A model generated the notes under the pieces. The model saw only the letters and a list, made by a program, of their open reading frames with translations, was not told the DNA's origin and made no database searches. Shown here one piece after another: positions 8,743-56,481 of a stretch of 64,000 nucleotides of DNA (its first letter is position 1; each line of letters starts with the position of its first letter). The translations under genes and the position numbers were made by a program. This stretch comes from a virus. The stretch spans positions 1 through 64,000 of IMG/VR virus record IMGVR_UViG_3300045007_000107; one strand, written 5' to 3'.

Positions 8743-9603
8743 ATGCCGTTACCACGTCGTCCCATGCGCCCGCCCGTGCAGCCGTCTGCAAGCAAGCCGG
8801 CCCTTACCAAACGCCCTCTCGGAGGTGCCAAGCCTCCCGGCGCCAAAGCCGCTCCCCCGTCGATTGGCAAGGATGATCCCTTCGCCAAGGCGCGCAAGCT
8901 CAAGATGGAGGAAGACCGTCAGGCCGAAATCCGCCGCAACCAGCCGCGTGAATTCCGCATGAAGGTCGGCGAAGGCGGCGAGAAGGGCGTCGAGATCCTG
9001 CTGCTCGACACGGCTCGTCTCCCTGATATGCCGTTCTTCCACTACATGCACCGCTGGGGTTACGTCGAAGGCCAGCCCGGTTCCGGTAAGACCGAGGTCT
9101 GCATCCAAGACGGCCCCGATGGGTGCCCGCTGTGCGAGAGCCTCGGTCGTCAGGGCAAGTGGGAGATGGCGCTCTCCTGCATCGACAATCGTCCCTACAC
9201 CCCGAACAGCGGCCCCAACGCTGGCAAGACCGTGCAGCGCTCCAAGAAGCTCGTCACGGTCAAGAGCAAGATGATCCCGAAGTTCGAACGGCTCTACAAA
9301 GAGCACAAGACCTTCCGGGGCATGGTCGTGCGTCTCTTCCGAGACAACAAGCAGGACGAGTCCATCGGCTCCGATGTGCAGTTCGTCCGCTTCCTCAACG
9401 AGACGCAACTCGCCAAGTACGCCGACATGGCGAAGCCGGTCGATTACGAGAAGGCGTTCCCGCGCCCGACCTACGATCAACTCGCCTCGCAGCATGGCGG
9501 CGGCAACTCCGGGGGCGGCAACCGTAGCAGCGGCGGCAATTCTCGTGGTGGGGCTGGAAGCGCGGACTTCGATGGGTCCGATGACGACTCGATCCCCTTC
9601 TAG
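8743..9603 (+). CDS. ssb: Single-stranded DNA-binding protein
   Basis: A 286-residue protein. The N-terminus MPLPRRP carries the basic tag, followed by a linker with the 14-bp repeat (VQPSASK). The core has a Cys cluster (CIQDGPDGCPLC, then ALSC), as in gp32-like zinc-containing binding proteins. A Gly/Ser/Asn-rich flexible tail ends in DSDDDSIPF-like acidic residues, the classic SSB interaction tip. It lies between primase and helicase, consistent with a role at the fork. Confidence 0.85.
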   Translation: MPLPRRPMRPPVQPSASKPALTKRPLGGAKPPGAKAAPPSIGKDDPFAKARKLKMEEDRQAEIRRNQPREFRMKVGEGGEKGVEILLLDTARLPDMPFFHYMHRWGYVEGQPGSGKTEVCIQDGPDGCPLCESLGRQGKWEMALSCIDNRPYTPNSGPNAGKTVQRSKKLVTVKSKMIPKFERLYKEHKTFRGMVVRLFRDNKQDESIGSDVQFVRFLNETQLAKYADMAKPVDYEKAFPRPTYDQLASQHGGGNSGGGNRSSGGNSRGGAGSADFDGSDDDSIPF

Positions 9604-18199: not shown

Positions 18200-18511
18200 A
18201 TGCCTCTGCTGCGCCGTCCCCGCCCGCGCAAGCTTATCCCCTGGATCGCGCCCACGCCCGAAAGCGTCGCGGCAAAGCTCCGATGCGACGACCCCGACAA
18301 CATCTCTGAGGTCCGCTGCCCCATGTGTCTCGGCCGGGGCGCGTGGGATTGGAACAGTAAGGTTCCCTGCCCGACATGTGGTGGCCTACGCAAGGTATCT
18401 CGGCTACAATATGAGCGGTTCGGGAAGACACTCGCGGACCCGGCAAAGGTACGAACCTTGTCGGCACGAGTGGCCTTCCTCGTTAAGGCACGTATACCTG
18501 CGAGACTGTAA
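18200..18511 (+). CDS. Small zinc-binding protein with MPLLRR tag
   Basis: A 103-residue basic protein. RCPMCLGRGAWDW and PCPTCGGLRKV are DnaJ-like zinc pairs. It begins MPLLRRPRPRK, matching the terminal tag. The TAATG overlap couples it to the next regulator-like gene. Confidence 0.75.
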   Translation: MPLLRRPRPRKLIPWIAPTPESVAAKLRCDDPDNISEVRCPMCLGRGAWDWNSKVPCPTCGGLRKVSRLQYERFGKTLADPAKVRTLSARVAFLVKARIPARL

Positions 18512-23802: not shown

Positions 23803-23874
23803 ATGAAGAATTTTGTCGCCTTTGTCTTCTGGTCTATGATCGCGGTTACTGCGGTAATACTGGTGTTCTCATGA
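23803..23874 (+). CDS. 23-residue membrane peptide
   Basis: MKNFVAFVFWSMIAVTAVILVFS is a single predicted transmembrane helix with a Lys near the N-terminus. It follows a strong promoter and its stop overlaps the next start (ATGA). Small toxic or inhibitor membrane peptides look like this. No family is assignable. Confidence 0.55.
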   Translation: MKNFVAFVFWSMIAVTAVILVFS

Positions 23875-24401
23875 GACGACTGATACGCACACCCGGCCAG
23901 CGCCTCCCGCCTGACAAGCGGGCGGAACGCAAGGCAAGCATCCTAGGAGATCGCCCCACCGAACCCCCGCAGTACATGGCGGATGTTCGGTGGGGCGAAG
24001 CCGTTGCGGAGGTCGGTCAGGTCAACACCGGCTGCATGTCCAACGGCCTGCATTATGTAGTGCTCAACGATGCGTTGCTTCGCAAGTTCCACCTGTCGAA
24101 GCCCTCGCAGTGCCAACTCATGCTGATGGTACAAGGCGCCGGTCTACACGCCTGCGAGAACACGCAAGAGATGGTTCACCGGTTCACGGTGTTCAACGAC
24201 AGTCGGCACCACCAGCGCGACGGCTACCTCTGGTACCCCGACATGATCGACATGCCGGCGGCCATCGGCGGCGAGATAGGCAGTCGCTATACCGCCGTCG
24301 CATCCGTAAGGTATGAACGATGCTCGTTCACTCCATGGGGCGAGCGGGTATATTTCCAGCCACGCCACGGCGTCATCTATCTAGGGTATGCCTACCGATG
24401 A
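23871..24401 (+). CDS. Hypothetical protein with MRRLIR tag
   Basis: A 176-residue protein starting MRRLIRTPGQRLPPDKR, a variant of the RRIG-type tag. The rest is a mixed beta protein with several His and Cys but no recognised fold. It overlaps the next gene by four bases. Confidence 0.75.
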   Translation: MRRLIRTPGQRLPPDKRAERKASILGDRPTEPPQYMADVRWGEAVAEVGQVNTGCMSNGLHYVVLNDALLRKFHLSKPSQCQLMLMVQGAGLHACENTQEMVHRFTVFNDSRHHQRDGYLWYPDMIDMPAAIGGEIGSRYTAVASVRYERCSFTPWGERVYFQPRHGVIYLGYAYR

Positions 24402-24829
24402 GACGGATGATCAAGCGCATAGGTACGGAAGCGGTTAGCTACGACACGGCGGTCTATGAGTGCCGTGTCTGTGGCGACACCCGCACGATGCTTGGCCTGT
24501 CAAAGGACGCGGTGCATCTCAAGACGCCCCGCTGCGACGGCCTGCCTATGGAGCAAGTCGCGTACAACGCGGACAAGCCGGCCGAACGAGTTCCGCTAGA
24601 GTATAAGCAGAGGCTCGCCTCGGGTACACGGCTCTGGTGCTTGATCCACCGCGAAAAGGGCGACCCGACGAAGCATGATCACGCCGGGCGTAGCCCCAAG
24701 CTCGCTGACAAGGGGTACAAGTATAAGCCTAGCCCCCACGTCGCGGGTAACGAGGACTTCGAGGATCTCTACCTGATGTATGTGGCGGCCAACCCCGGCA
24801 CCGAGCAAGAAGACAAGGAAGCCCCATGA
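24398..24829 (+). CDS. Putative zinc-binding protein with MRRMIKRIG tag
   Basis: A 143-residue protein beginning MRRMIKRIGTEA. CRVCGDTRTMLGLSKDAVHLKTPRC and a later C-x-x-H (WCLIH) could form a zinc site. It ends in an acidic tail and overlaps the next gene (ATGA). Confidence 0.75.
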   Translation: MRRMIKRIGTEAVSYDTAVYECRVCGDTRTMLGLSKDAVHLKTPRCDGLPMEQVAYNADKPAERVPLEYKQRLASGTRLWCLIHREKGDPTKHDHAGRSPKLADKGYKYKPSPHVAGNEDFEDLYLMYVAANPGTEQEDKEAP

Positions 24830-27698: not shown

Positions 27699-28241
27699 AT
27701 GCCCCGATTTCTTCGAAGAATTGGACGCCTCTACAGCAAAGAAGCGTCGGCGCAAGAGCCCGACCCACAGACCCAACGCATGATCGCTGACCCGTCTGCG
27801 CCGGGGTGTGATACGTGTCGGTTCATGTCGAGCATGACCCACCGTTGCCTCAATCGCAACAGCCCCTACTATAGGCGACCCGTAGGGGTGGACGATGCTA
27901 TGACGTGCCGCTTCCACTTGAGCGGAGACCGTGATCGGCGCACACAGCAGTTCGTGGATCAGTTTGCAGAGTCCTTGGTCGCGCAGACCCCCGCATTTCC
28001 CGCCGGTGAGACGCCCGTCGATCACTTACGCAGTATGCGAGCGATGGACGCGCTGTTGACGCCGGGCGCGGTACAGGGTGGTCATAATGGCTGTTTCTCT
28101 TGTGCCTACAACACGCGGCGATCCGAAGGTGTCGGCTACCAGGGATGTCACTATCCCGGCAGTCAAATGGACCTCGATCCACTGGACGACGGGCTGCGCT
28201 GTCCCGAATGGACACGTGCGCCCGACGCTGAACCTAGGTAG
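27699..28241 (+). CDS. Four-cysteine module protein, RRIG-tagged (two modules)
   Basis: A 180-residue protein beginning MPRFLRRIGRLYS. Two modules are visible: CDTCRFMSS...HRCLNRNS...MTCRFH and CFSCAYNTR...GCHYPGS...LRCPEW. Each has the order CxxC, then a Cys after 12-25 residues, then a Cys followed by an aromatic or His. This is the first member of the family that fills 27.7-37.5 kb. A zinc site is likely; the function is not known. Confidence 0.78.
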   Translation: MPRFLRRIGRLYSKEASAQEPDPQTQRMIADPSAPGCDTCRFMSSMTHRCLNRNSPYYRRPVGVDDAMTCRFHLSGDRDRRTQQFVDQFAESLVAQTPAFPAGETPVDHLRSMRAMDALLTPGAVQGGHNGCFSCAYNTRRSEGVGYQGCHYPGSQMDLDPLDDGLRCPEWTRAPDAEPR

Positions 28242-28252
28242 CGGAAAATAGC

Positions 28253-28280
28253 TTGTGCGCGTGACGGCTTCTGCTACCTT
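28253..28280 (+). promoter_or_regulatory. Sigma-70-like promoter
   Basis: TTGTGC, a 16-bp spacer and TACCTT, followed by the leader hairpin of the 28325 gene. Confidence 0.6.
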
Positions 28281-28286
28281 GCAACC

Positions 28287-28305
28287 GGGCGACCGTGCGG
28301 CGCCC
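28287..28305 (+). promoter_or_regulatory. Leader hairpin with CGTGCG top
   Basis: GGGCG pairs with CGCCC around ACCGTGCGG. ACGGAGC follows seven bases later. Confidence 0.6.
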
Positions 28306-28324
28306 TATACGGAGCAAAGGGACA

Positions 28325-29011
28325 ATGGCTAAGGATCACATCATCGTTATGGTCGAGAGCCTGCCGGCTCGCCCGCAATTCGAGGCGGCGAAGAACGCCC
28401 CCAAGGGTCGGGTTTTCGGCAGCTACACCCACACTCTGCGCGAGGACGGTGAGCACGACGAGATCGACAACCCCGAAGTCTGTACGATGCCGGAACTCTG
28501 TGCGCGTCTGCTCAACGAGGGCGGCAAGGGTATTATTTTCGTGCCCTATACCCACCATACCGAGGGTGATGTTCACTTCTGCATCGTCGTAGCGGGCATC
28601 ACGCGCGAGCAGGAGGCGCAAGCCCGTATCGAGGAAGAGATCCACCGCCTCACCCGCAAGAGTATGCTGATCGGCGGCCTCTTCGGCGCCTTATTCGGCA
28701 GCGACCGAGCCGAGGACGGCGACGGTACCCTTTCCGGCCGTGCGGCCATCAAGAAACACACCGAGGCGCTGACGCCGGGGAGCAAGATCGTAGTCATGCC
28801 GGCCAACTATCGCGGCAACGATCCCGAGCAACGTGTAGAAGTTCCGTACGCGACCTACAACCGCCTCATGGAACTCGAAATGATCGACCCCTGCCCGGTT
28901 TGCACCCTGCGCGAGGATCGGCTTGTCTGCCATACCGAAGACGACTATACTATGGAGGATGTCCTGCGCATCGTCCGCGAGCCGATCCCGAACGCCTCGC
29001 CGAAGCTGTAG
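28325..29011 (+). CDS. Hypothetical protein with possible zinc site
   Basis: A 228-residue protein with its own promoter. The central part has one hydrophobic glycine-rich segment (MLIGGLFGALFGS). The C-terminal DPCPVCTLREDRLVCH may bind zinc. ATG 28325 is favoured over an upstream GTG inside the leader hairpin. Unknown function. Confidence 0.75.
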   Translation: MAKDHIIVMVESLPARPQFEAAKNAPKGRVFGSYTHTLREDGEHDEIDNPEVCTMPELCARLLNEGGKGIIFVPYTHHTEGDVHFCIVVAGITREQEAQARIEEEIHRLTRKSMLIGGLFGALFGSDRAEDGDGTLSGRAAIKKHTEALTPGSKIVVMPANYRGNDPEQRVEVPYATYNRLMELEMIDPCPVCTLREDRLVCHTEDDYTMEDVLRIVREPIPNASPKL

Positions 29012-29036
29012 TACGTTTTCCTCCCTAGACTATTAA

Positions 29037-29077
29037 GCCCCGCTTGCAGCCGACTGCAATGCGGGGCATTCTTTTTT
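29037..29077 (+). terminator. Intrinsic terminator built around a 14-bp repeat
   Basis: GCCCCGC-TTGCAG pairs with CTGCAA-T-GCGGGGC around CCGA, so the repeat palindrome (29045-29058) is the top of the terminator stem. CTTTTTT follows. Confidence 0.8.
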
Positions 29078-29078
29078 C

Positions 29079-29093
29079 GGGACGTGCGGTCCC
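29079..29093 (+). promoter_or_regulatory. Leader hairpin with CGTGCG top
   Basis: GGGAC pairs with GTCCC around GTGCG, followed by ACGGAGC. Confidence 0.6.
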
Positions 29094-29107
29094 ACGGAGC
29101 AACGACC

Positions 29108-29383
29108 ATGAAACAGATCCTTTCCCGCAAGCAGCGTCGCGCCATTGCCTGGGAGAACATGAGCGAAACGCACTACAATCGCCACTGTCAGGGCGCAGTG
29201 CGCCGTATCACCAACGCGGACTTCCACTGGTACTTGGCGATGGCGAACAGCTACCTGTTCACCTACCGCGATATCGCCTCTCGGCTCGACATGACGTACG
29301 CCGAGGCCAAGGTTCATGCGCGTAATGTTATCGGGGCTGCACGCGCGGCACGTCTCGATGTCGGTTGCGTCATCCCCGGTTAA
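29108..29383 (+). CDS. Hypothetical helical protein
   Basis: A 91-residue protein; NSYLFTYRDIASRLDMTYAEAKVHARNVI could be a helix-turn-helix. Strong GGAGC site. Possible small regulator, but not certain. Confidence 0.7.
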   Translation: MKQILSRKQRRAIAWENMSETHYNRHCQGAVRRITNADFHWYLAMANSYLFTYRDIASRLDMTYAEAKVHARNVIGAARAARLDVGCVIPG

Positions 29384-29395
29384 GGAGCTACCACA

Positions 29396-29644
29396 ATGCA
29401 AGGAAGATTTGAGAACCTGACCGTCGATGAACTCGACTTATTGATGCGTTGTCTAGCAGGGCGGATCGAGAGCTATGGGCTCAACACTGAGAACACGGAT
29501 CACCGTATGCTACTGGCGCTGTTCGTGGAACTTGACTGCCCCTACTGTGCGCCTCACGATCTCGAAGAAAAGCTGCTGAACTACATTAGCGAGCACAATC
29601 GCGATCAAGTGCGAGACGCGGTCAAGGACTTGGGTCTGATCTAA
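29396..29644 (+). CDS. Small acidic hypothetical protein
   Basis: An 82-residue helical acidic protein. LDCPYCAPHD holds a CxxC that may bind metal. GGAGCTACCACA precedes the ATG. Unknown family. Confidence 0.7.
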   Translation: MQGRFENLTVDELDLLMRCLAGRIESYGLNTENTDHRMLLALFVELDCPYCAPHDLEEKLLNYISEHNRDQVRDAVKDLGLI

Positions 29645-29647
29645 CGC

Positions 29648-29675
29648 TTGCAGCCGTCTGCACGTCGCGTATTAT
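29648..29675 (+). promoter_or_regulatory. Promoter using the 14-bp repeat as -35 box
   Basis: TTGCAG inside the repeat, a 16-bp spacer and TATTAT. Drives the 29711 gene, through a GCGCC/GGCGC leader hairpin with GTGCG top (29683-29697). Confidence 0.65.
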
Positions 29676-29710
29676 CGATCTTGCGCCGTGCGGGCGCATC
29701 GGAGCCAGCC

Positions 29711-30046
29711 ATGTACACCACTGAGCAGCGCAAGAGCCTTCTTCGCCTTTTCCGTACCTTTCGTAACCAGTACCGTGATGACGCCCTCGCCGAGCGCCAG
29801 CGCGTCGCCCAAGCCATCACCGAGCGCGCCACCAACGGCGAGGTGCTGACTGTGAGCGGCGGCACGGACTGCGATGGTTACCGCCACGGCCCCCACTTCG
29901 GCTACGTACAGGCGAGCGTAGTAGCATTCGAGTACGCCCGCAGCAAAGCCTATGAGTGGGCGGACGGCCCCCACTACTTCCGTCTCGCGACCCCGCGCGA
30001 GATCGAAGAGTACAACGAGCGCTGCGACGAGATGGAGGTCGCGTAA
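29711..30046 (+). CDS. Hypothetical protein
   Basis: A 111-residue protein. The N-terminal half is helical and basic. GGTDCDGYRHGPHFGYV looks like a compact His/Cys-rich turn. It overlaps the next gene by one base (TAATG). Unknown family. Confidence 0.7.
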   Translation: MYTTEQRKSLLRLFRTFRNQYRDDALAERQRVAQAITERATNGEVLTVSGGTDCDGYRHGPHFGYVQASVVAFEYARSKAYEWADGPHYFRLATPREIEEYNERCDEMEVA

Positions 30047-30265
30047 TGGCGATCAACGAACAGATCAAGTTTCGACTGATACAGATGCCGTGCTGCGGTA
30101 CGCTCTCGTGTTGGGTCAATCCCCGCCTTCCCACCTATTGCGCGGAATGCGGTCAGAATGTCTACCTCCGGCTCAAGTCGGGGGGGGTATACGCGCATGG
30201 AGTCGGACGGTTGGCTCAAGGTCAACGATCCTACCATGCACCGCCTGCCTTCCGACCCCGAGTAA
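30046..30265 (+). pseudogene. Small zinc-ribbon gene with possible frameshift at a G8 run
   Basis: The frame opens well: MAINEQIKFRLIQMPCCGTLSCWVN...CAECGQNVYLRLKSGG, with four paired Cys. At eight Gs (30180-30187) the original frame turns into low-quality sequence that overlaps the next gene. The frame with one G fewer reads YTRMESDGWLKVNDPTMHRL and stops at 30265, just before GGAAACC and the next ATG. This is either a real frameshift, slippage, or an assembly error in the run. Confidence 0.55.
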
Positions 30266-30277
30266 GGAAACCGTTCC

Positions 30278-30496
30278 ATGGCATCGCATCTCGCCCACAA
30301 GGACTATCGCGACCTCACCCCGGAGGAACAGGACTACATCGACCGTGAGGGCGGACCCTTCTATGTCATCCACCCTCGTGCCCTATGCGTCTTTGATTAT
30401 TGGTCCGAGGCGTGGGAGTTTGCTCTCGACCTACAAGAGACCTACGACGGTAACAAGTCTCGCGCCACGGTCTACCATTCAGGACAGTATACATAG
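30278..30496 (+). CDS. Small hypothetical protein
   Basis: A 72-residue acidic protein (LTPEEQDYIDREGGPFYVIHPRALCVFDY...SEAWEFALDL). GGAAACC precedes the ATG. Unknown function. Confidence 0.7.
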   Translation: MASHLAHKDYRDLTPEEQDYIDREGGPFYVIHPRALCVFDYWSEAWEFALDLQETYDGNKSRATVYHSGQYT

Positions 30497-30527
30497 GAAA
30501 TTCTTTGCAGCCATCTGCAAGCAACTG

Positions 30528-30556
30528 TTGCCGGGGGAGTGATCCTCCGGTATACT
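30528..30556 (+). promoter_or_regulatory. Promoter with palindromic spacer
   Basis: TTGCCG, a 17-bp spacer and TATACT. The spacer and flanks form the inverted repeat CCGGGGGA-GTGA-TCCTCCGG, which could be an operator. A 14-bp repeat copy lies just upstream (30506). Confidence 0.65.
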
Positions 30557-30583
30557 TGTTTTAGGACCTATGGATCGGAGCCT

Positions 30584-31054
30584 ATGTCCAAGTTTCTACT
30601 CTTCCTACAACTCGTGATCCTGGTACAGCTTGGTACCCTCTGGCACGATTACGGCTTCAAGCTGTTTGCAGTCGTGCTCGCCATTCTGCTGTTCGGTACC
30701 CTGCGCGGTGCGCTCAAGGCTGAGCAGCAGATGAACGAGCGGATGCATACCTGTGAGCGGTGCCAGCGCAAGTTTCACGGAGCGATGGTCGAGAGGTGCC
30801 AGTTTGAGGGGTGCGTCCACGATGCCGGCGCCCTGAACAGGTTATCCGAGCAACTTACCGTCGCCCTACGTCTCGCTAACGAACGGGCAACGGCCCCTCG
30901 CCCTACAGCGGCGCAATTGCGCGCCACACGCCCGCGCCGCGTTATTCGCGGACTATCCCCCTCCCCTACCGTCGAGCCAGCCCATGCGTCGCCTAATACG
31001 GATAAAGCCCCGACAACAGAAGATCTCCCCCGCGCCTTCTACGACGGGTCTTGA
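30584..31054 (+). CDS. Membrane protein with zinc-like Cys cluster
   Basis: A 156-residue protein. Two hydrophobic segments (LLFLQLVILVQLGTLW and LFAVVLAILLFGTL) form a short hairpin anchor. A cytoplasmic TCERCQRKFHG...ERCQFEGC may bind zinc, followed by an Ala/Pro-rich tail. It overlaps the next gene by 71 bases. Confidence 0.7.
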   Translation: MSKFLLFLQLVILVQLGTLWHDYGFKLFAVVLAILLFGTLRGALKAEQQMNERMHTCERCQRKFHGAMVERCQFEGCVHDAGALNRLSEQLTVALRLANERATAPRPTAAQLRATRPRRVIRGLSPSPTVEPAHASPNTDKAPTTEDLPRAFYDGS

Positions 31055-31370
31055 GCAACTGTTCTCGCACGGTGCCAACGACCTTCCGCGCGCAGTAACT
31101 GCTATCCGCAGAGATAAGCCGATCACCGCTGTCGTGACATACGTTCGGGTCGAGCACAACAAGTTCAAGAACTGCCCGCAGGTTACCCTCAAGGGTGCCG
31201 ACGACGGCGCGGGGTGGAACTGGTATAGCGTGTACGAGCCGAGCGGCAAGCTGTCCCACAATGTAGGAACGTACTCGGGTCCGTACATCGTTGACTTTAG
31301 CTTTATTAAAGAAATGATCGATAGGTTTTACGAAAAGCCGGTCAACGAGCTAAGTGCGGAGGACTTCTAA
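30984..31370 (+). CDS. Hypothetical protein with MRRLIRI tag
   Basis: A 128-residue protein. MRRLIRIKPRQQK is a tag variant. The remainder is a beta-rich core (VTYVRVEHNKFKNCPQVTLKG...WNWYSVYEPSG). TAATG overlap couples it to the next tagged gene. Confidence 0.72.
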   Translation: MRRLIRIKPRQQKISPAPSTTGLEQLFSHGANDLPRAVTAIRRDKPITAVVTYVRVEHNKFKNCPQVTLKGADDGAGWNWYSVYEPSGKLSHNVGTYSGPYIVDFSFIKEMIDRFYEKPVNELSAEDF

Positions 31371-32143
31371 TGCCGAGACTGATCAGACGCATAGGGCACG
31401 CTCCCGCACTCCCACCCCCGCCCGAGAATGTTTGGCCGGGGTTTCGCATTCTGTCGGGGTACAAAGTCTATTGCGGCGACAGGGACTTGCGCGAGGTCTA
31501 TGTTCTGCACGGGATCAACTGTGACGCCGCAGGATCACCCCACGAGGATGCGGACACCTTGCGGGAGCAGTTTTTCTCGTCGCCTTATGACGCGCGAACA
31601 GGACAAATGCAGGTAGGTTACGGAGAGATCGATAACTGTTTCAGTGGCCGGTATCCCGAACGCCTGCCCGATAAGGTGCGCGAGGCGTGCTACGATATTC
31701 TTCATGATGCGCAGGAATACGTCACTTGTCAGATCCTATTTCCGCCCATGACCGGCGACTTGCAGCCGTCTGCACGTGTTGATGTACGCAGACCTATCGA
31801 TCCTCCCGCACTAGGTCGTATCGAGGATCACCCCGATGTGAGCGCCCTGCCGCCGAACACGGTGATTTGCGAGGGTTGCGGTCGGCTGAGCTATGAGCAC
31901 GTACGACACCCGCGCTGCTGTCCTGATAACAGTTTCCATCGCCTCGATACACAGCGGGGTCGCATTGCTGTGCGTCAGTTTCGTCGCCACCAACAGATAC
32001 GTAGTGACGTATGCGTGGCGTGCGATGCCCTAGAGACAAACGACTTTGGGCGGAGTTGTCGCTTCGGGATGAGTAGTCCGCGCAACCGCACCTCGTGTAC
32101 CATGCACACGTCGTTAGCTTATCGCCGAGAGAGGAGGAGCTAG
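31370..32143 (+). CDS. RRIG-tagged protein with Cys modules
   Basis: A 257-residue protein beginning MPRLIRRIGHAP and a Pro linker. The 14-bp repeat (LQPSARV) sits in the middle. The C-terminal third has ICEGCGRL...HPRCC and VCVACDALETNDFGRSCRF, looser versions of the four-Cys module. Function unknown. Confidence 0.72.
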   Translation: MPRLIRRIGHAPALPPPPENVWPGFRILSGYKVYCGDRDLREVYVLHGINCDAAGSPHEDADTLREQFFSSPYDARTGQMQVGYGEIDNCFSGRYPERLPDKVREACYDILHDAQEYVTCQILFPPMTGDLQPSARVDVRRPIDPPALGRIEDHPDVSALPPNTVICEGCGRLSYEHVRHPRCCPDNSFHRLDTQRGRIAVRQFRRHQQIRSDVCVACDALETNDFGRSCRFGMSSPRNRTSCTMHTSLAYRRERRS

Positions 32144-32898
32144 TGCCAGCCCGCGTTCTTCGCAAGATTGGTATACCGCTACCGCCTCCGGTTAAGGAAC
32201 CCCTGCCGCGCATACCGGACAGCGATAGCTCACGCCCACAGTATGGTTTGTGCGGTAGCTGCCGGTATAAAGGTAGTATGGAGCCGGACCGGGGCGGTGA
32301 ATGGTTATGTGGTGTCTCGCGCCTGTATGTCAGCAATAGTCATTTCATTGATGGTGGCGAGTGTTCTCACTACGAGGATGTATCCGTCCCTGGAACGATT
32401 ACCATAGACGCTAGTCAGATAGTCGTAGGGTCGATAATGGCAGACCAGATAGTTGCGGGCTCTATCGGTGTCGATAGAATAATGGTCGCTGATAATGTGG
32501 CCGAGCAATTAATACAAGATGTGCGAGAGGCGCAGTTAGTTGGCGCGCTTACCTCCGAACAGATAGAGCAGATAAACAGCCATACCCTAGTAGGTGGGCT
32601 CAGGGTCACGAACGAACCAGTACCTATCGCGCCACGCATCACGGCCGCACATAGGCTCACAGGAGTGCGTAGAATAAGGGACAGGGCGCGCGTGTTGTTT
32701 CTGGTCTATATGGAGTTGGACATACAGCAACAGGGTATGGCGACCGAGGTGATGCCTGTTGAGGTCATGTACGACCATCACGGAAACCTCAATGATCAGC
32801 GCCTCTATTATGTGCCGCAAAGCTTAGGTGTTGGCGAGGTATATCGCATTACCCGAGCTACAAGAGAGCGACTTGACGGGGAGTTTGTCGAGCTATGA
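32143..32898 (+). CDS. LRKIG-tagged protein with Cys module and GSI repeats
   Basis: A 251-residue protein with a GTG start and strong GAGGAGG. VPARVLRKIGIPLPPP is the tag. One four-Cys module (LCGSCRYKGS...LCGVSRL...ECSHY) is followed by tandem ASQIVVGSI/ADQIVAGSI/VDRIMVA units, similar to beta-helical repeats in phage tail tip proteins. The C-terminal part looks like a small beta domain. The mosaic build suggests domain shuffling. Confidence 0.7.
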   Translation: MPARVLRKIGIPLPPPVKEPLPRIPDSDSSRPQYGLCGSCRYKGSMEPDRGGEWLCGVSRLYVSNSHFIDGGECSHYEDVSVPGTITIDASQIVVGSIMADQIVAGSIGVDRIMVADNVAEQLIQDVREAQLVGALTSEQIEQINSHTLVGGLRVTNEPVPIAPRITAAHRLTGVRRIRDRARVLFLVYMELDIQQQGMATEVMPVEVMYDHHGNLNDQRLYYVPQSLGVGEVYRITRATRERLDGEFVEL

Positions 32899-33137
32899 GA
32901 AGATCTTTACGCAAGATCGGCCCGGCCGAGGAAGCACCTGTCAAGGTTACGCCTTTGATGCGGGCTAACGCTACTATGAAGGTGAGGCCCAACCGGGCAA
33001 GCCTCTGTAAGATGTGTACGCTCCGCGACCGTCTCGCGTACAACGCGCGGGGTCTTATCGTGTGCTCGTGGTCTATGATCGAAACACCCGAGGACACGCC
33101 AATCACAAAGTGCCCCTACTATGAGTGCGTGATATGA
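32895..33137 (+). CDS. RRSLRKIG-tagged single Cys-module protein
   Basis: An 80-residue protein, the smallest complete member of the family: MRRSLRKIGPAEE, then LCKMCTLRD...LIVCSWSMIET...TKCPYYECVI. ATGA overlap with both neighbours. Confidence 0.72.
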   Translation: MRRSLRKIGPAEEAPVKVTPLMRANATMKVRPNRASLCKMCTLRDRLAYNARGLIVCSWSMIETPEDTPITKCPYYECVI

Positions 33138-33637
33138 AGCGCCAATTACGCCGCATAGGCTTGCAGCCATCTGCACCCGCGCCTCCACCCCCACCAGAAC
33201 CTAGCGATGCGCGATCCTGCGATACGTGCCGGTTCAACAGGAAGGCAAGCATTTACTCTACGCCGCCGCATGAGCTGATTATTCATTGCTCGGGCAGGAT
33301 CGGGGTCGGGTATACTACCCTACGAACCAACTGCCACGGATGGGAGGCAACCGTACCTCACCACGTCGGATCTCTCTGCAATAGGTGCGTACACGGTACA
33401 GTACACTACGATCATCCTGTTCATGGGATAGCGGTTAATTGTACGAGGTTTACCACGCAACGGATCGCATACGCCACTGAATGTCGTGATTATCGCGATG
33501 AAGAGATGCAGGCACACTTTCGCCGAGCCGCTGAGGAAGAGGCTATGTACGCGGCTACGCTACCCGATCCGCCTGCCCCTTGGTACGCGCGCTTGCGGGA
33601 TCGTCTGATGTGGTGGTGGGGAGGTTACAATGCATAG
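33134..33637 (+). CDS. RRIG-tagged protein with two Cys modules
   Basis: A 167-residue protein. MKRQLRRIG is followed at once by the 14-bp repeat (LQPSAP) and a Pro run. Modules: CDTCRFNRK...IHCSGRIG...NCHGW and LCNRCVHGT...VNCTRFTT...ECRDY. The start at 33134 overlaps the upstream stop. Confidence 0.74.
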   Translation: MKRQLRRIGLQPSAPAPPPPPEPSDARSCDTCRFNRKASIYSTPPHELIIHCSGRIGVGYTTLRTNCHGWEATVPHHVGSLCNRCVHGTVHYDHPVHGIAVNCTRFTTQRIAYATECRDYRDEEMQAHFRRAAEEEAMYAATLPDPPAPWYARLRDRLMWWWGGYNA

Positions 33638-34007
33638 GCTCTTACGCAGGATCGGGCGTATACCGCCCACCATCGTCACCCGAGAGCAGACTGCTCACAT
33701 CACCCGCGCAGGCCGTGTCCACGAGACTATCGTTCACCTCTCGCCGGCCTCCCTAGGGGACGAGATCAATGCAGGCGAGCGCGTTATCTCTATAACCGAG
33801 GAAAGCCGCTATCAGGAGAGGGAAATGGACGGGGAACGTATCCTCTATCCTGTAGCGCCCACGGGTACCCGCAAGGTCGAGACTATACGCATCGAGTCCA
33901 ATTGGGATGGTAGCAGCCGTATCCGTAAGCGCACCTACCGAGAATTCATGGACCAAAGCGGTGACGTGCAACGCATGATTATCGAACAAAGCTGGGAGTA
34001 TCAGTGA
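33630..34007 (+). CDS. RRIG-tagged protein without Cys module
   Basis: A 125-residue protein starting MHRLLRRIGRIPP. It shares the tag but has no cysteine, showing that tag and module are independent. The body is beta-rich (TRKVETIRIESNWDGSSRIRKR). Function unknown. Confidence 0.72.
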   Translation: MHRLLRRIGRIPPTIVTREQTAHITRAGRVHETIVHLSPASLGDEINAGERVISITEESRYQEREMDGERILYPVAPTGTRKVETIRIESNWDGSSRIRKRTYREFMDQSGDVQRMIIEQSWEYQ

Positions 34008-34297
34008 TGCTACGTCGCATCAAAGGCATCGGTAGACCGAGACCTGTGCAGCCGTCTGCAACCGAGCAACCCTCCGTGGAGCCCCCACGGAGGGTTGAAC
34101 TACTTAAAGCGGTACCTGTAGGGCGGAAGTGCCATAGTTGCGTCTACCGTACGGAACTTCTGCCCCTGTACCACCGGGACACGAGAACCAACGACCCGCC
34201 GCAGGTAAAGGGCTATACCTGTCCCATCGTCTCGCGGCACTACCCTCTGGACGATGGTCCGCGCATCTGCAACCGACATGAGCCCACGGGGATCTAA
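34007..34297 (+). CDS. RRIKGIG-tagged single Cys-module protein
   Basis: A 96-residue protein. MLRRIKGIGRPRP, then the 14-bp repeat (VQPSAT) and one module CHSCVYRTE...YTCPIVSR...ICNRH. TGATG overlap upstream. Confidence 0.72.
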   Translation: MLRRIKGIGRPRPVQPSATEQPSVEPPRRVELLKAVPVGRKCHSCVYRTELLPLYHRDTRTNDPPQVKGYTCPIVSRHYPLDDGPRICNRHEPTGI

Positions 34298-34299
34298 TC

Positions 34300-34893
34300 A
34301 TGCCTCGCAAGATCAGACGCATTGGGCGTGAGACTCCACCGCGACCGGCACCCGCCCCTGAGCCTCCGCGCGGGAACTACAAGCGCAACTCTAACACAGG
34401 GCACTCATGTAACTACTGTATCTACCGGGAGCATCACGTCTATAACAAGTGGAGCCCCGACTTCCCTGAGCGCGCGTGGTGCCCGGTCGCTAACACAACC
34501 TACGTGACCGACAGCAGCAGGGATCAGGTTACGGTGTGCGGCACCTTCCGCGCGGGCGATCACGTTGTGGTAGCAGTGGAACCTACCATCGATACGCTCC
34601 TTGAGATGGTGGGCGCCACAAGTCAGGAGGAAGCGCGGCGTCGTGGTCGGCATACTATTGCTGGTACGGTAACCGGACGTGCGAGTTCCACGCGCGGTCT
34701 CACTGATTTCCCCCTAGAAGTCATGCCCGAGGACTCCATCTGCCGTACCTGTCGCCATCGTGATCATATACGCGCTAGGCTTCGTCGGTCGGAAGCGGGT
34801 ACTGACGTGCGTTCGTGGGCGTGTAACCACGCATTGCGCCAGCGTATATATGGTGCCGGGGTTCGGACATGCCAGTCATGGGAACAGGACTAA
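34300..34893 (+). CDS. RRIG-tagged protein with two Cys modules
   Basis: A 197-residue protein beginning MPRKIRRIGRETPP and a Pro linker. Modules: CNYCIYREH...WCPVANT...VCGTF and SICRTCRHRDH...WACNHAL...TCQSW. The segment between modules (about 85-145) is helical. Confidence 0.74.
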   Translation: MPRKIRRIGRETPPRPAPAPEPPRGNYKRNSNTGHSCNYCIYREHHVYNKWSPDFPERAWCPVANTTYVTDSSRDQVTVCGTFRAGDHVVVAVEPTIDTLLEMVGATSQEEARRRGRHTIAGTVTGRASSTRGLTDFPLEVMPEDSICRTCRHRDHIRARLRRSEAGTDVRSWACNHALRQRIYGAGVRTCQSWEQD

Positions 34894-35321
34894 TGGCTAA
34901 GGAACCAACCCCCAAAGCTCTCGCCCGCCGTCGTGAGCGCGAGCGTATGACGGAGGAACAGAAAGAGCGGGAGCGCGAACGTAAACGCGCTTCGGCCAAG
35001 CGGCATCGGGAAAGCGAGAATGCTCGACAGCGTAAATATATCGCCGCGCATCCCGAACTAAGAGCCTACTATCGGCGGCGCTACAGCCTGCGCAAGATGA
35101 AACCCCACAACGCGAAAAAGCGTACAATAGAGATCATGGCCGAACTACAGGCCAAGGCACCCAGGCATCACGGTCGCGAAGAGATCATCGCGGCGGCGAC
35201 AATGTTCGTACTAGAGGGCGATACCGTCGAAGTGGCGCTCGCCAAAGCCTCGAAACAGCACAACGCCGAGACACGTATCCAGCGGTCGAGCACCAACTTC
35301 GAAGAAGCGTATTGGCTATGA
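34893..35321 (+). CDS. Highly basic helical protein
   Basis: A 142-residue protein. Residues 10-75 are a run of Arg, Lys and Glu (ERERMTEEQKERERERKR) likely to be a single helix, then a helical C-terminal half. It may bind nucleic acid. It is coupled to both Cys-module neighbours by overlaps. Confidence 0.7.
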   Translation: MAKEPTPKALARRRERERMTEEQKERERERKRASAKRHRESENARQRKYIAAHPELRAYYRRRYSLRKMKPHNAKKRTIEIMAELQAKAPRHHGREEIIAAATMFVLEGDTVEVALAKASKQHNAETRIQRSSTNFEEAYWL

Positions 35322-35836
35322 AGCGCATTATCCGAAACATAGGCAGCATCGCGCCCTTGCAGCCGTCTGCAATCCCCGAGTTTACCGCCACGATTACCGG
35401 GCGGCCTCCGTTCGATGAGCACGGCAATCCGCACGTGCGGGGCGTCTGCGCGCGTTGCACCTCTCGCAGACGCTTTACCTTCGACGCCCAGCGACAGGAG
35501 TATACCTGCCCTCGGATAGATCGCGTGATTACACCTGGCGGCGGGCGTACCGAATGTGCATCCTATGACCTCGACATGCCCGAGCATGATCGCCGCCGTA
35601 CAATCCAGCAGTCATTCAACGGTCCTGCCGCTCGTCCTCCGAACCTAGACATCGTGGGTCGAACCTCCGACTGTCATACCTGTAATGCGGCGTGGAGTAT
35701 CGACCGCGTCTCTCCCTCTCACTGGCGGTGTCCTCGTATTGCTCGCACTCTCGCCAGCGCGGTCGGTATCGTTAACTGTTCCGGCTATGAGCATGATCTC
35801 GAACTCTACCGTACTGCCCCATGGGAGCCTGACTGA
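35318..35836 (+). CDS. RRIG-type tagged protein with two Cys modules
   Basis: A 172-residue protein. MKRIIRNIGSIAP, then the 14-bp repeat (LQPSAI). Modules: VCARCTSRR...YTCPRIDR...ECASY and DCHTCNAAW...RCPRIAR...NCSGY. ATGA overlap upstream. The start could also be a TTG two codons earlier. Confidence 0.74.
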   Translation: MKRIIRNIGSIAPLQPSAIPEFTATITGRPPFDEHGNPHVRGVCARCTSRRRFTFDAQRQEYTCPRIDRVITPGGGRTECASYDLDMPEHDRRRTIQQSFNGPAARPPNLDIVGRTSDCHTCNAAWSIDRVSPSHWRCPRIARTLASAVGIVNCSGYEHDLELYRTAPWEPD

Positions 35837-36096
35837 TGCTTACTCTCGATACTGTTCGCGCTAACATCTTCGCAGGAGATCCGTTAGCTAAATCACCAGA
35901 TGAGGTGACCGATACAGGTACAGCAATCGAAATTGCCGGTATCGATGACGGTACAGAGTTCCGTGAAGACCTACGTTTCGTTTCCGAGGGCGATGGCGTA
36001 GAGCTACTTGTGCGCGATCCCGGTACGGTTTCGTGGAACTCGCACGGCGTCTTTCGTGATTGGCGCGAGCTTCATATATGGATTTACGAACTATGA
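35836..36096 (+). CDS. Small acidic hypothetical protein
   Basis: An 86-residue protein interrupting the Cys-module run. TAATG-like coupling at the start (TGATGC). Contains EIAGIDDGTEFREDLRFVSEGDGVELLVRD, a beta pattern without known family. Confidence 0.65.
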   Translation: MLTLDTVRANIFAGDPLAKSPDEVTDTGTAIEIAGIDDGTEFREDLRFVSEGDGVELLVRDPGTVSWNSHGVFRDWRELHIWIYEL

Positions 36097-36188
36097 ACCA
36101 GCGGGCTCGTCTTACCCTGGCCGTTATGCTAATCGGTACGGCGGTTCTCATCACTGCTTGCATTCGCGGGATATGGTCGCTGATATGA
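36093..36188 (+). CDS. 31-residue membrane peptide, possible lipoprotein
   Basis: MNQRARLTLAVMLIGTAVLITACIRGIWSLI has a positive start, a hydrophobic stretch and LITAC, a possible lipobox leaving a nine-residue peptide. Overlaps both neighbours by four bases (ATGA). Confidence 0.5.
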   Translation: MNQRARLTLAVMLIGTAVLITACIRGIWSLI

Positions 36189-36886
36189 AACGCTTGATCA
36201 GAGGGATCGGCCGCCAAGAGCTACGTACCGAGGCAACCACTCAGCGCATCTTGGATAAGTGCGACAGCATCATCGGCGTATTACAAGAAGGTATTGCTGC
36301 AAGCCCCAGCCCGATAGCATCTCAACTTCATGCGGACAGTCTGTGTCGGCGGTGCCCCCACCAGAACCGGATTAGGCAGAACCCGAACGTTCCTCGTAAC
36401 CCGGCCGAGGTCTACTGTCCTGCGCACGACTACTACTTCAATGCTCATGTGCCGGTCGAGTCCTGCGCGCGGTATCATCGCGATGTAATACAGCCTAACC
36501 CTCCCTGGGAGCGCCCAGCGCGGTCTATCACCGAAGTGGGCCTACCGCCTATCCCCGAGGGTAGTATCTGCGAGTCGTGCCCTCACCGTGCTACAAGACA
36601 TTATGCGCGCGGCGAGAGTTATGTCCATTGTAATTCGCCCGAGCAACTCCACACTGTAGCGATAGGTGCGACCATATACTCGTGTACCAGCTACCCTCCC
36701 GAACGTGTCCAACGCGCGGTCGTATACGATACACCTCGTGAAAGTCAATGCAGGACATGCTTACACGGGACTCGCCTAGTCCGCTCTAGTGTCAATCCTG
36801 AACGCGGTGCTGTATGTCGTCAGGCAGATCGTCGGTTCACTACAGACGCTGTAATACAACAGTGTCACGATTATAGGGCTTTCTGA
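36185..36886 (+). CDS. RRIG-type tagged protein with three Cys modules
   Basis: A 233-residue protein. MKRLIRGIGRQE, then three modules: LCRRCPHQN...YCPAHDY...SCARY, ICESCPHRA...HCNSPEQ...SCTSY and QCRTCLHGT...VCRQADR...QCHDY. The linker before the third (VQRAVVYD) resembles those in the next gene, showing duplication of module plus linker. Confidence 0.76.
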   Translation: MKRLIRGIGRQELRTEATTQRILDKCDSIIGVLQEGIAASPSPIASQLHADSLCRRCPHQNRIRQNPNVPRNPAEVYCPAHDYYFNAHVPVESCARYHRDVIQPNPPWERPARSITEVGLPPIPEGSICESCPHRATRHYARGESYVHCNSPEQLHTVAIGATIYSCTSYPPERVQRAVVYDTPRESQCRTCLHGTRLVRSSVNPERGAVCRQADRRFTTDAVIQQCHDYRAF

Positions 36887-36887
36887 T

Positions 36888-37532
36888 ATGCGTCGGCTCA
36901 TTCGCGGGATCGGTATTACACCTGTATTACAAACGGTTGCAGAGCCGTCACGCTATCAGGACGCGGTCGTATCCCGTACCCATGAAGAAAACATCTGTAG
37001 GCACTGCCAGCACTCCGACTGCCTGAGCTACGCGTCCGGAGAGCCGGGCCAACTTGCGGACGTTCGATGCGCCCATGCCGGTCATAGCTATCCAGGCGAC
37101 GTCGGTCTGTCGGACTGTATCGACTACCAGCGTATTACAGGTCCAAGCGTAACGTCGAACTCCCAGCGCGCGGTCGTTGATCTATTACCCCAAGACAGTC
37201 TATGTCGTCAGTGTAGCTTCTCTCCCCGTCTATACGCCCACTCCGAGGAGGACGGTATACCGGGAACAGTTACCTGTCGGTATACGGGTTACACCACAGA
37301 CATCAACGTACCGGTGCGCGAGTGCTCGGCGTATTACACGTACTCGACACCACATTCCCAACGCGCGGTCGTTGATACCTTACACCCTAATACCCTATGT
37401 AGACAGTGCAGGCACGGAACGTCTATCCGACCATACAATAGATCACCCGAGTGGTATGCCTGCCCTGTAGCCGACCGCTATTTCAGACCCTACAACTTCA
37501 TCCTCTCATGCCGGTCTCTGGTACGTCTCTAG
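36888..37532 (+). CDS. RRIG-type tagged protein with three Cys modules
   Basis: A 214-residue protein, last of the run. MRRLIRGIGITPV, then ICRHCQHSD...RCAHAGH...DCIDY, LCRQCSFSP...TCRYTGY...ECSAY and LCRQCRHGT...ACPVADR...SCRSL. The linkers SQRAVVDLLPQDS and SQRAVVDTLHPNT are near-identical, also in DNA (37161 and 37355), so duplication is recent. Confidence 0.76.
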   Translation: MRRLIRGIGITPVLQTVAEPSRYQDAVVSRTHEENICRHCQHSDCLSYASGEPGQLADVRCAHAGHSYPGDVGLSDCIDYQRITGPSVTSNSQRAVVDLLPQDSLCRQCSFSPRLYAHSEEDGIPGTVTCRYTGYTTDINVPVRECSAYYTYSTPHSQRAVVDTLHPNTLCRQCRHGTSIRPYNRSPEWYACPVADRYFRPYNFILSCRSLVRL

Positions 37533-53852: not shown

Positions 53853-55475
53853 ATGCCCGAGCAGTACCGGCCCCGTCTCCGCATTCTGATTGACCCCGTC
53901 TACGTGCAGATCAGCAATCTGTCGGGGTCGTCCACCTACCGCAAGTACGTCACTCTTGTCCGTGAGCTAGTCGCTCGCGGTCATTATTGTTTTTGGTGTG
54001 TCCCCGACGCCGAAGGTTACGTGCCCGATGAGATCGAGAACCATCCTAACGTTGGCATTATTCGCACTGGCGTTATCCAAGACCAGTTCGTGGTCGATGG
54101 ACTCGTCACGGATGACTTCTTCAACCTCTTCAACCGGGTCGCGGGCAAGTACCACATCGACGTTCTTTGCACATCCAGAAACAGCCTTGCAGCCTATTAT
54201 AAACGACTGTTGGAGCCGCCCCGGTTCCACGACAATCGTGGTGACTATACCGACAAGGGATACGGCGTCCCGACTGTTCTCATCGAAGAGTTTCCTCAGA
54301 CCCGAGAGCGACAGAATTCGGGTGAGGCTTACTGGCTTATGCAAACTCTAGGGTACATCGCCAGCGACAAGACGGTGTTCCTGTCCGGCCACAACCGTTC
54401 GGAAGTGGTCAAAGAGATGGCGGACTATATCGTCACCTCCAAGGTCAAGAGGTTCATCGATGAGCAAGCGCGTGTCATCCCCGCCGGCATCGAATGTGAT
54501 CAGCTTGACACGATCTACGACCCGAACCGCTGGCAGCACGAAGAAGGCTTTCGGGTGGTCTCTATTGGCCGCATTTTTGGCGTCTCTTATTCTGAATACG
54601 TGCCTTGGTTTGATTATCTGTTCAAGAGTGGACTGTCTGACGCGCAGCTTACCGTCTCGCTCTCTGGCGCCCTTGGTGGCCCCATGCGGAACAAGCTCAA
54701 GAAACTAGGGTTCGACTTCGGCAACGTGGGCCGGCAGTACCGCATCCTCGAAAATAACAACCGGGCAAACTTCATCCGACAGCTTCGGGGGTATCACGCC
54801 TTCGTCTGCCCGCTAAGTCACCTCGACCATCCTACGGGGCTTTTCGAAGCCATTTACATGGGCCTCCCCGGCGTCATGCCGGTCTCGGACTATCAGCGTA
54901 CGTTCTTCCATGACTGGCCCTGGGTTATCGAGCCCAAGGATAAGGCGCGTTTGCTCGCGCATCTTCGCTGGATCAGGGAGAACAAAGCCGAAGCGCGCGA
55001 GATGGTCCTACCGTGGCGCCAGCGTATCCGTGAGCAGTACAACGCGAAAGATCGGATTGGCGAACTCTGCGACGTGATCGAGGGGGCGGGTCGTGCTCAC
55101 ATCAACCGCTTTAAGACTTCTTCCGCTGTTCTTAAATTCTGCCGCGAACTTAAGGGCGTTAGTTACAGCTTTGCGGACGTTGTCGCGTTCCTCAAGGAAC
55201 AGGGCTACATGGGGATCAGTATCGGCGATATGTCGATACGCACGACGTTCACCTACGCACGCGGGGCTGTGCATCACGCCATGGGTATGGCTGGATACGT
55301 TGATGCTTGTAACGGCCCTGATGATCTGTTCGTGCGCCGAGACGTGTTCGACCGGGATTACCTCCCTGCGCCGATTGCTCCGCTCCCGCTAACGCAGGAA
55401 GAGAAAATCGATATCCCCTTGCAGACGGCTGCAAAGCCCGGTCTGCGCCGCTTCACCCCCACGAGGAAAGCCTAA
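53853..55475 (+). CDS. Glycosyltransferase, GT-B fold (GT4-like)
   Basis: A 540-residue enzyme. An N-terminal Rossmann half (RLRILIDPVYVQISNLSGSSTYRKYVTLVRELVARG) and the donor-site signature HPTGLFEAIYMGLPGVMP (about 335-352) identify a GT-B glycosyltransferase. A C-terminal region (about 420-520) is separate. The 14-bp repeat (LQTAAKPG) is near the end. Candidate roles are sugar addition to modified phage DNA bases or to surface structures. ACGGTGAAG precedes the ATG. Confidence 0.8.
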   Translation: MPEQYRPRLRILIDPVYVQISNLSGSSTYRKYVTLVRELVARGHYCFWCVPDAEGYVPDEIENHPNVGIIRTGVIQDQFVVDGLVTDDFFNLFNRVAGKYHIDVLCTSRNSLAAYYKRLLEPPRFHDNRGDYTDKGYGVPTVLIEEFPQTRERQNSGEAYWLMQTLGYIASDKTVFLSGHNRSEVVKEMADYIVTSKVKRFIDEQARVIPAGIECDQLDTIYDPNRWQHEEGFRVVSIGRIFGVSYSEYVPWFDYLFKSGLSDAQLTVSLSGALGGPMRNKLKKLGFDFGNVGRQYRILENNNRANFIRQLRGYHAFVCPLSHLDHPTGLFEAIYMGLPGVMPVSDYQRTFFHDWPWVIEPKDKARLLAHLRWIRENKAEAREMVLPWRQRIREQYNAKDRIGELCDVIEGAGRAHINRFKTSSAVLKFCRELKGVSYSFADVVAFLKEQGYMGISIGDMSIRTTFTYARGAVHHAMGMAGYVDACNGPDDLFVRRDVFDRDYLPAPIAPLPLTQEEKIDIPLQTAAKPGLRRFTPTRKA

Positions 55476-55618
55476 TGTCCCCTGACGATCTCAACGACGT
55501 ACTGTCGGCCTACCGCGAAGCCCTGCTAGAGCACGGGCCGGACATGGGGATCAAGCCGAAGTACGTTGAAACCCTCGTGGCGCAACTCGGCGCCCGCATC
55601 CTGGGAGCACTCAAGTAA
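55475..55618 (+). CDS. 47-residue helical protein
   Basis: MSPDDLNDVLSAYREALLEHGPDMGIKPKYVETLVAQLGARILGALK is a short helical protein coupled by TAATG on both sides. Possibly a small partner of the ParB-like gene; unknown. Confidence 0.6.
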   Translation: MSPDDLNDVLSAYREALLEHGPDMGIKPKYVETLVAQLGARILGALK

Positions 55619-56481
55619 TGGCCCTCGCTAAGAAGCTTCCTCCGAAGGTCGCGCCGAAGAAGCCGGCTCCGCTCAAGCGTTCGACCCTGGAAATTTTCGA
55701 CATTCCGGTCGATGATCTGGTCGGCCACGAGGACAACCCGAACGAGCAGGACGAAGCAACCTTCGACCAGCTTGTCGAGGGCATCCGCGCGGACGGGTTC
55801 GATGAGCCGATCCAAGTCGTTCCTATCGAGGGCGGCACGCACGCCGGCAAGTGGCAGATCTTCTCGGGTCACCACCGCGCCAAGGCTGCGAAAGTCCTCG
55901 GCCTCAAGGTCATCCCCGCTGTCGTCAAGAAGGGCTGGAACGAGGACAAGGTCAAGATCGAACTCGTGCGCCGGAACCGGCTGCGCGGCAACCTCAATTC
56001 CGAGAAGTTCACGAAGCTCTACAACGAACTCAAGACGCGTGGCTGGGACGAGTCCATGCTCAAGTTGCAGATGGGCTTCACAAAAGAGGACGCGTTCAAG
56101 AAGGTCTACAAGTCCATCGAAAAGGCGATGACGCCCTCGCAAAAGAAAAAGCTCGAAGAGAGCAAGGAGAGCATCAAGTCGGTGGACGGCCTTTCGTCCG
56201 TGCTCAACGACATCTTCAAGAACCATGGCTCCGACCTCGACCACGGCTTTGTCGTGTTCAACTTCGGGGGCAAGGAGATCCACTACATCGAGACCGACAC
56301 CTCGCTCAACAAGCAGGTCAAAGCGCTCGAAGAGGAGTGCCGCAACAAGGGCATCACCCTGGCGGACGCCTTCAAGCACCTGCTGAACCGCCCGAACTTG
56401 AGCGGCGTGAAGAAGTCCGGTACAGTCCAAGCTCCCGCGAAGGTGAAGCCCAATGCTAAGACATCGTCGGCCGCTGCGTAA
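55618..56481 (+). CDS. ParB/Spo0J-like nuclease-domain protein
   Basis: A 287-residue protein. MALAKKLPPKVAPKKPAPLKR is a basic tail. FDIPVDDLVGHEDNPNEQDEATFDQLVEGIRADGFDEPIQVV and SGHHRAKAAKVLGLKVIPAVV are the ParB N-terminal motifs. Residues about 120-200 are helical and may hold a helix-turn-helix (ESMLKLQMGFTKEDAFKKVYKSI). No ParA partner is seen. Phage ParB-like proteins next to terminase are frequent. It is a candidate binder of the 14-bp palindrome. Confidence 0.82.
   Translation: MALAKKLPPKVAPKKPAPLKRSTLEIFDIPVDDLVGHEDNPNEQDEATFDQLVEGIRADGFDEPIQVVPIEGGTHAGKWQIFSGHHRAKAAKVLGLKVIPAVVKKGWNEDKVKIELVRRNRLRGNLNSEKFTKLYNELKTRGWDESMLKLQMGFTKEDAFKKVYKSIEKAMTPSQKKKLEESKESIKSVDGLSSVLNDIFKNHGSDLDHGFVVFNFGGKEIHYIETDTSLNKQVKALEEECRNKGITLADAFKHLLNRPNLSGVKKSGTVQAPAKVKPNAKTSSAAA

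Follow-up and report, generated by a model that had tools for sequence, protein, structure and literature searches.

A tandem array of ten tagged genes encoding four-cysteine modules in the accessory region of a phage

The DNA analyzed here (the window) covers positions 1-64000 of a virus record that is 101,701 bases long. Based on the ORF listing and a motif scan, we identified ten plus-strand genes between 27699 and 37532 that together encode 19 four-cysteine modules. This is in agreement with a preliminary description of about ten neighbouring genes with some 19 module copies, one, two or three per member. The first gene, at 27699-28241, begins with MPRFLRRIG and has two modules. Next to it, an untagged gene (28325-29011) carries a half-module, CPVCTLREDRLVC, at its end, and another untagged neighbour (30539-31054), a probable membrane protein, contains the Cys motif CERCQRKFHGAMVERCQFEGC. 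A packed block of genes opens at 30984-31370 with a partially tagged plus-strand gene (MRRLIRIKP) that has no module. It is followed by 31370-32143 (MPRLIRRIG, two degenerate modules), whose start codon begins at the final base of the preceding stop codon, and by 32143-32898, which has a GTG start, the tag MPARVLRKIG and one module, behind which lies a segment resembling a tail-fibre stalk, VPGTITIDASQIVVGSIMADQIVAGSI. Further tagged members are 32895-33137 (MRRSLRKIG, one module), 33134-33637 (MKRQLRRIG, two), 34007-34297 (MLRRIKGIG, one), 34300-34893 (MPRKIRRIG, two), 35318-35836 (MKRIIRNIG, two), 36185-36886 (MKRLIRGIG, three), and 36888-37532 (MRRLIRGIG, three), the last with QRAVVD linkers. 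Also within the putative operon are a tagged gene without Cys (33630-34007, MHRLLRRIG), a very basic gene with neither tag nor Cys (34893-35321), and an acidic untagged gene (35836-36096), all on the plus strand. The tagged set reaches upstream of 27699 on the same strand: 24398-24829 (MRRMIKRIG) has a CxxC...C...C stretch with unlike spacing, and 23871-24401 (MRRLIRTPG) has a partial tag and no module.

From 30984 to 37532, adjacent genes overlap by 1-8 nt or are separated by 1-2 nt, the exception being an 88-nt gap 5' of 36185. Because most of the genes overlap or abut this tightly, the array probably forms a single operon with translational coupling. Terminator-like sites on the plus strand at 30529-30552 and 39203 both lie outside the packed block, and the only candidate inside it, at 36031, is weak. 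All ten array reading frames are open. GC3 is 0.55-0.68 in the tagged genes as compared to 0.79 in the large genes, as expected for fast-evolving or acquired genes.

Seventeen of the 19 modules match the strict pattern C-x2-C-x(8-26)-C-x(12-19)-C-x-x-[YWFH], in which the aromatic residue is the third past the last Cys and the commonest spacing between the third and fourth Cys is 15. Of the two exceptions, the third and last module of 36888 has no aromatic residue (CRSL) and the first module of 31370 is missing its last Cys. When residues were shuffled within the ten proteins (2000 trials), the mean number of strict modules was 0.05 and the maximum 2, confirming that the module array is real and statistically strong. 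Apart from the Cys pattern, the modules have little in common across the array. In a leave-one-gene-out profile test, 34300 (one module), 36185 and 36888 were clearly recovered, with best E values of 3e-7 and 2e-4 for the held-out modules of 36185 and 36888. Genes 32143 and 32895 were recovered at noise level only, and 27699, 31370, 33134, 34007 and 35318 were not recovered above noise; the membership of these two groups therefore rests on motif, tag and position.

The tag, R-x-[IL]-[RK]-x-I-G, is present at the N-terminus of 10/10 array proteins in variant form (RRIG, RKIG, KGIG, RNIG and RGIG), which exceeds the earlier claim that most members carry RRIG. The codons of the tag vary: R3 is encoded by CGA, AGA, CGC, AGG or CGG, I8 by ATT, ATA or ATC, and G9 by all four glycine codons. 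Since synonymous codons vary freely while the peptide is kept, it is selection on the peptide, and not recent copying, that maintains the tag. The tag sequence has no hydrophobic stretch, so that export of the array proteins seems unlikely. A basic-proline stretch, e.g. [LI]RK[LIV]xP, is found at or near the N-terminus of several core proteins, among them the terminase and head-block proteins (window positions 18511, 56453, 57085, 59311 and 62416; record positions 65042 and 97959). It has a loose likeness to the RRIG tag and is inconsistent in relatives.

The products of 36185 and 36888 are clearly paralogous (E 3e-15). Two QRAVVD linkers inside 36888 (37161-37216 and 37356-37411) share 75% DNA identity over 56 bp, and the 36185 and 36888 linkers share 86% over 29 bp. 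Recent duplication, as previously proposed, is thus borne out by the linkers of these two genes and not elsewhere in the array; recent copying was local, and the remaining modules are old or fast-evolving. A diversity-generating retroelement was considered and rejected, as its indicator, RVT_1 (reverse transcriptase), is not matched in the genome. The searches yielded no orthologue on which a dN/dS comparison could be based, and the diversifying function and variable partner binding proposed earlier are hypothetical.

The record is syntenic with Agrobacterium phage JP1 and Rhodobacter phage RcTiptonus. Its terminase, glycosyltransferase and replication genes place it in a lineage with JP1, RcTiptonus, RcDurkin, other phages and IMG/VR contigs, with identities to JP1 and the Rhodobacter phage relatives of about 50-52% for the terminase and 58-64% for the glycosyltransferase. 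The conserved glycosyltransferase gene (54021-55475) lies just 5' of the ParB-like and terminase genes, and its identity is 75-76% in the related records G008 and G009. The glycosyltransferase had no match in the bacterial genomes searched, and we therefore infer the host solely from related phages. The phage is probably an alphaproteobacterial siphophage. The array lies in its fast-changing accessory region, flanked on one side by conserved replication genes and on the other by the glycosyltransferase/terminase (head) block. The flanks of this region are syntenic with relatives and the region itself is different in every relative.

Six-frame searches found 19 strict module matches in this genome (17 in the array) versus 0 or 1 in each related record or stretch (n = 19), and ORFs combining tag and module number eight in this genome and zero in relatives. 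The array is absent from the relatives examined, some of which are fragments; this absence is firm for G003, G008, G009, JP1 and RcTiptonus, where the accessory region is covered. A module profile (A1) was built and searched against phage records, as the preliminary description had proposed, and matched 17 places in its own genome, all of them sequences it was trained on, and had no match in 23 other records. The profile generalises poorly and recovers few held-out genes, so that this negative is weak, remote homologues may have been missed, and the motif and tag count is the better negative. Searches of named phages found no relative of 36185 and only matches with E of 4 or more for 36888. 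IMG/VR scans with 36185, 36185 plus 36888, 34300 plus 31370, 28325, and 34893 also found no relative; the named-phage searches and these scans need near-exact short peptides, which makes their negatives weak. No stretch of an eight-row alignment (A2) was sufficiently conserved to serve as a query, and literature searches found no account of such an array. The array looks like a lineage-specific, phage-specific multigene family, and the earlier remark that the number of paralogs is odd for a phage holds for this lineage, with relatives lacking the array and no curated family matching above its cut-off.

A 16-bp near-palindrome, TTGCAG-CCGT-CTGCAA, recurs throughout the record: CAGCCGTCTGC alone occurs 45 times and 62 TGCAGNNNNCTGCA were counted, with examples at window positions 8776, 12726, 15194, 30505, 33161, 40675 and 44368. 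The sites lie both within and between genes, and those within genes often encode an in-frame QPSA in linkers, including the linkers of array genes 31370, 33134, 34007 and 35318. The palindromes of relatives have the same outer arms (TTGCA/TGCAA) and a different inner part: GCAGGAACCTGC occurs 42 times in G009 (stretches L036-L040), CAGGTACCTGCA 20 times in G008 (L030-L035), CAATCGATTGCA 22 and 35 times in G003 (L019-L021) and RcTiptonus (L066), respectively, and CAAACGTTTGCA 20 times in JP1 (L065). The shared arms with differing inner parts suggest a putative binding-site system that spans the lineage and drifts in specificity; a conserved DNA-binding protein, for instance the ParB_N protein at 55618-56481, may serve it. 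This system is possibly of more interest than the array.

Pfam, PHROGs, NCBIfam, PADLOC and PDB sequences gave no accepted match for the array proteins or modules. For the ten proteins, PHROGs had nothing better than E 0.03 and the anti-phage defence families of PADLOC-DB had zero matches; Rfam had none. A well-characterised zinc-ribbon family, a match to which the earlier description had named as refuting, was sought and none was found above cut-off: one of 16 modules matched Pfam Zn_Ribbon_TF (PF08271) at E 0.00095, with 19.1 bits against a cut-off of 29. A module was also modelled to look for a zinc site, another check proposed earlier. The AlphaFold model (16 paralogous rows) has a CxxC followed by a beta-hairpin and is weakly zinc-ribbon-like, but its confidence is low (pLDDT 66) and its best PDB matches, the zinc ribbons of TFIIB and TFS4, are not significant (TFIIB ribbon E 2.1); the model of full-length 36185 (pLDDT 41) was unusable. 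The array module is like the PF08271, TFIIB and TFS zinc ribbons in its four Cys and, in this low-confidence model, in the CxxC and beta-hairpin. It differs from the PF08271 ribbons in that its second half consists of two single Cys about 15 apart, not a CxxC; with 12-19 residues between the third and fourth Cys, the second CxxC/CxxH knuckle of a zinc ribbon is absent. Because the four Cys are kept and the model is weakly zinc-ribbon-like, a metal site is plausible, and a single zinc on the four Cys would be its most likely state.

The best explanation of the array, which we favor tentatively and at somewhat less than even odds, is that its products are cytoplasmic zinc-binding adaptors or inhibitors that share a docking tag, differ in their binding faces and act in takeover or anti-defence. 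A constant tag and a constant Cys scaffold, with all else diverged, point to variable binding domains attached to a shared docking peptide, and the location of the array in the accessory region suggests host takeover or anti-defence. Each product would consist of the short basic N-terminal peptide, a proline-rich linker in several members, and one to three mini-domains of about 45 residues, each held by one zinc on four Cys (the CxxC and two single Cys around the beta-hairpin). The tag would probably dock all members onto one partner, and the diverged surfaces of the mini-domains would each bind their own target, such that co-expression from the translationally coupled operon could yield a battery of adaptors or inhibitors for use during infection. 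The zinc, the docking role of the tag, the targets and the timing are postulated parts of this explanation. The low confidence of both models, the presence of the tag on the module-less protein 33630, and the tail-stalk-like segment of one member (32143) argue against it. Perhaps the phage has invented a combinatorial adaptor system, a bolder form of the adaptor explanation that we consider doubtful. In it, a selected N-terminal docking peptide would recruit diverged metal-stabilised mini-domains to one shared machine of host or phage, where each would redirect or block a target of its own; duplication of modules and linkers within one operon would build and rebuild the set.

The basic tag, a pI of 8 or above in most members, the weak TFIIB/TFS-type resemblance, and the one to three modules per chain, as in multi-finger proteins, would also fit zinc-ribbon regulators that, like phage transcription factors, bind nucleic acids (DNA or RNA). 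We regard this as unlikely: charge is not conserved (pI 5.2 for 32143 and 6.9 for 27699), there is no conserved basic surface besides the Cys, and the dispersed palindromes also occur in relatives that have no array, so that the array does not explain them. A slightly less likely alternative is a virion role, with the modules decorating the tail fibres and varying contact with the host. In 32143, the segment that follows the tag and module matches repeats of the phage's own 3595-aa tail protein at several places (E 6e-6 to 1e-4), and there is a weak PHROG tail match; such a segment is more in keeping with a virion protein than with a cytoplasmic adaptor. However, this applies to 1/10 members, the array lies over 40 kb away from the tail genes, within the accessory region, and the stalk-like segment may merely trimerise the protein.

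That the genes are decaying or non-functional duplicates is improbable. Their low GC3, the degenerate modules of 31370, the module without an aromatic and the absence of the array from relatives are consistent with decay, but every frame is open and the tag and Cys were kept while synonymous codons and other residues diverged. Least probable, and very much so, are redox or Fe-S proteins of the HiPIP type (PF01355), whose pattern C-x2-C-x16-C-x13-C-x2-W resembles the module in Cys spacing and in the aromatic past the last Cys, as checked in the sequence of 1hip. An identity with HiPIP was rejected, as the hhalign probability was 1.6% with the CxxC part alone aligned and no HiPIP profile matched in the genome at E up to 10. 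The array proteins also lack an export signal and a conserved hydrophobic pocket, and differ from HiPIPs in their tandem modules and tag.

Should the modules bind diverse partners via the common tag, the array would supply a stock of ready-made phage inhibitors or adaptors. It would also offer a way of studying how phages assemble new binding proteins from a minimal four-Cys scaffold. To our knowledge, large tandem paralog families are unusual in tailed phages. Large eukaryotic DNA viruses have tandem multigene families, including cysteine-rich ones in their variable genome ends. The array is like these families in its virus-specific tandem paralogs, its fast-changing region and a cysteine scaffold kept while surfaces apparently diverged; it differs in residing in a tailed phage and in the N-terminal tag common to its members, and has no known sequence relation to them. 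Host-takeover or early regions of phages (e.g. SPO1-type) contain many small genes. The array likewise lies in an accessory region of small genes without assigned function, but whereas the genes of SPO1-type regions are mostly unrelated to each other, the ten array genes form one family.
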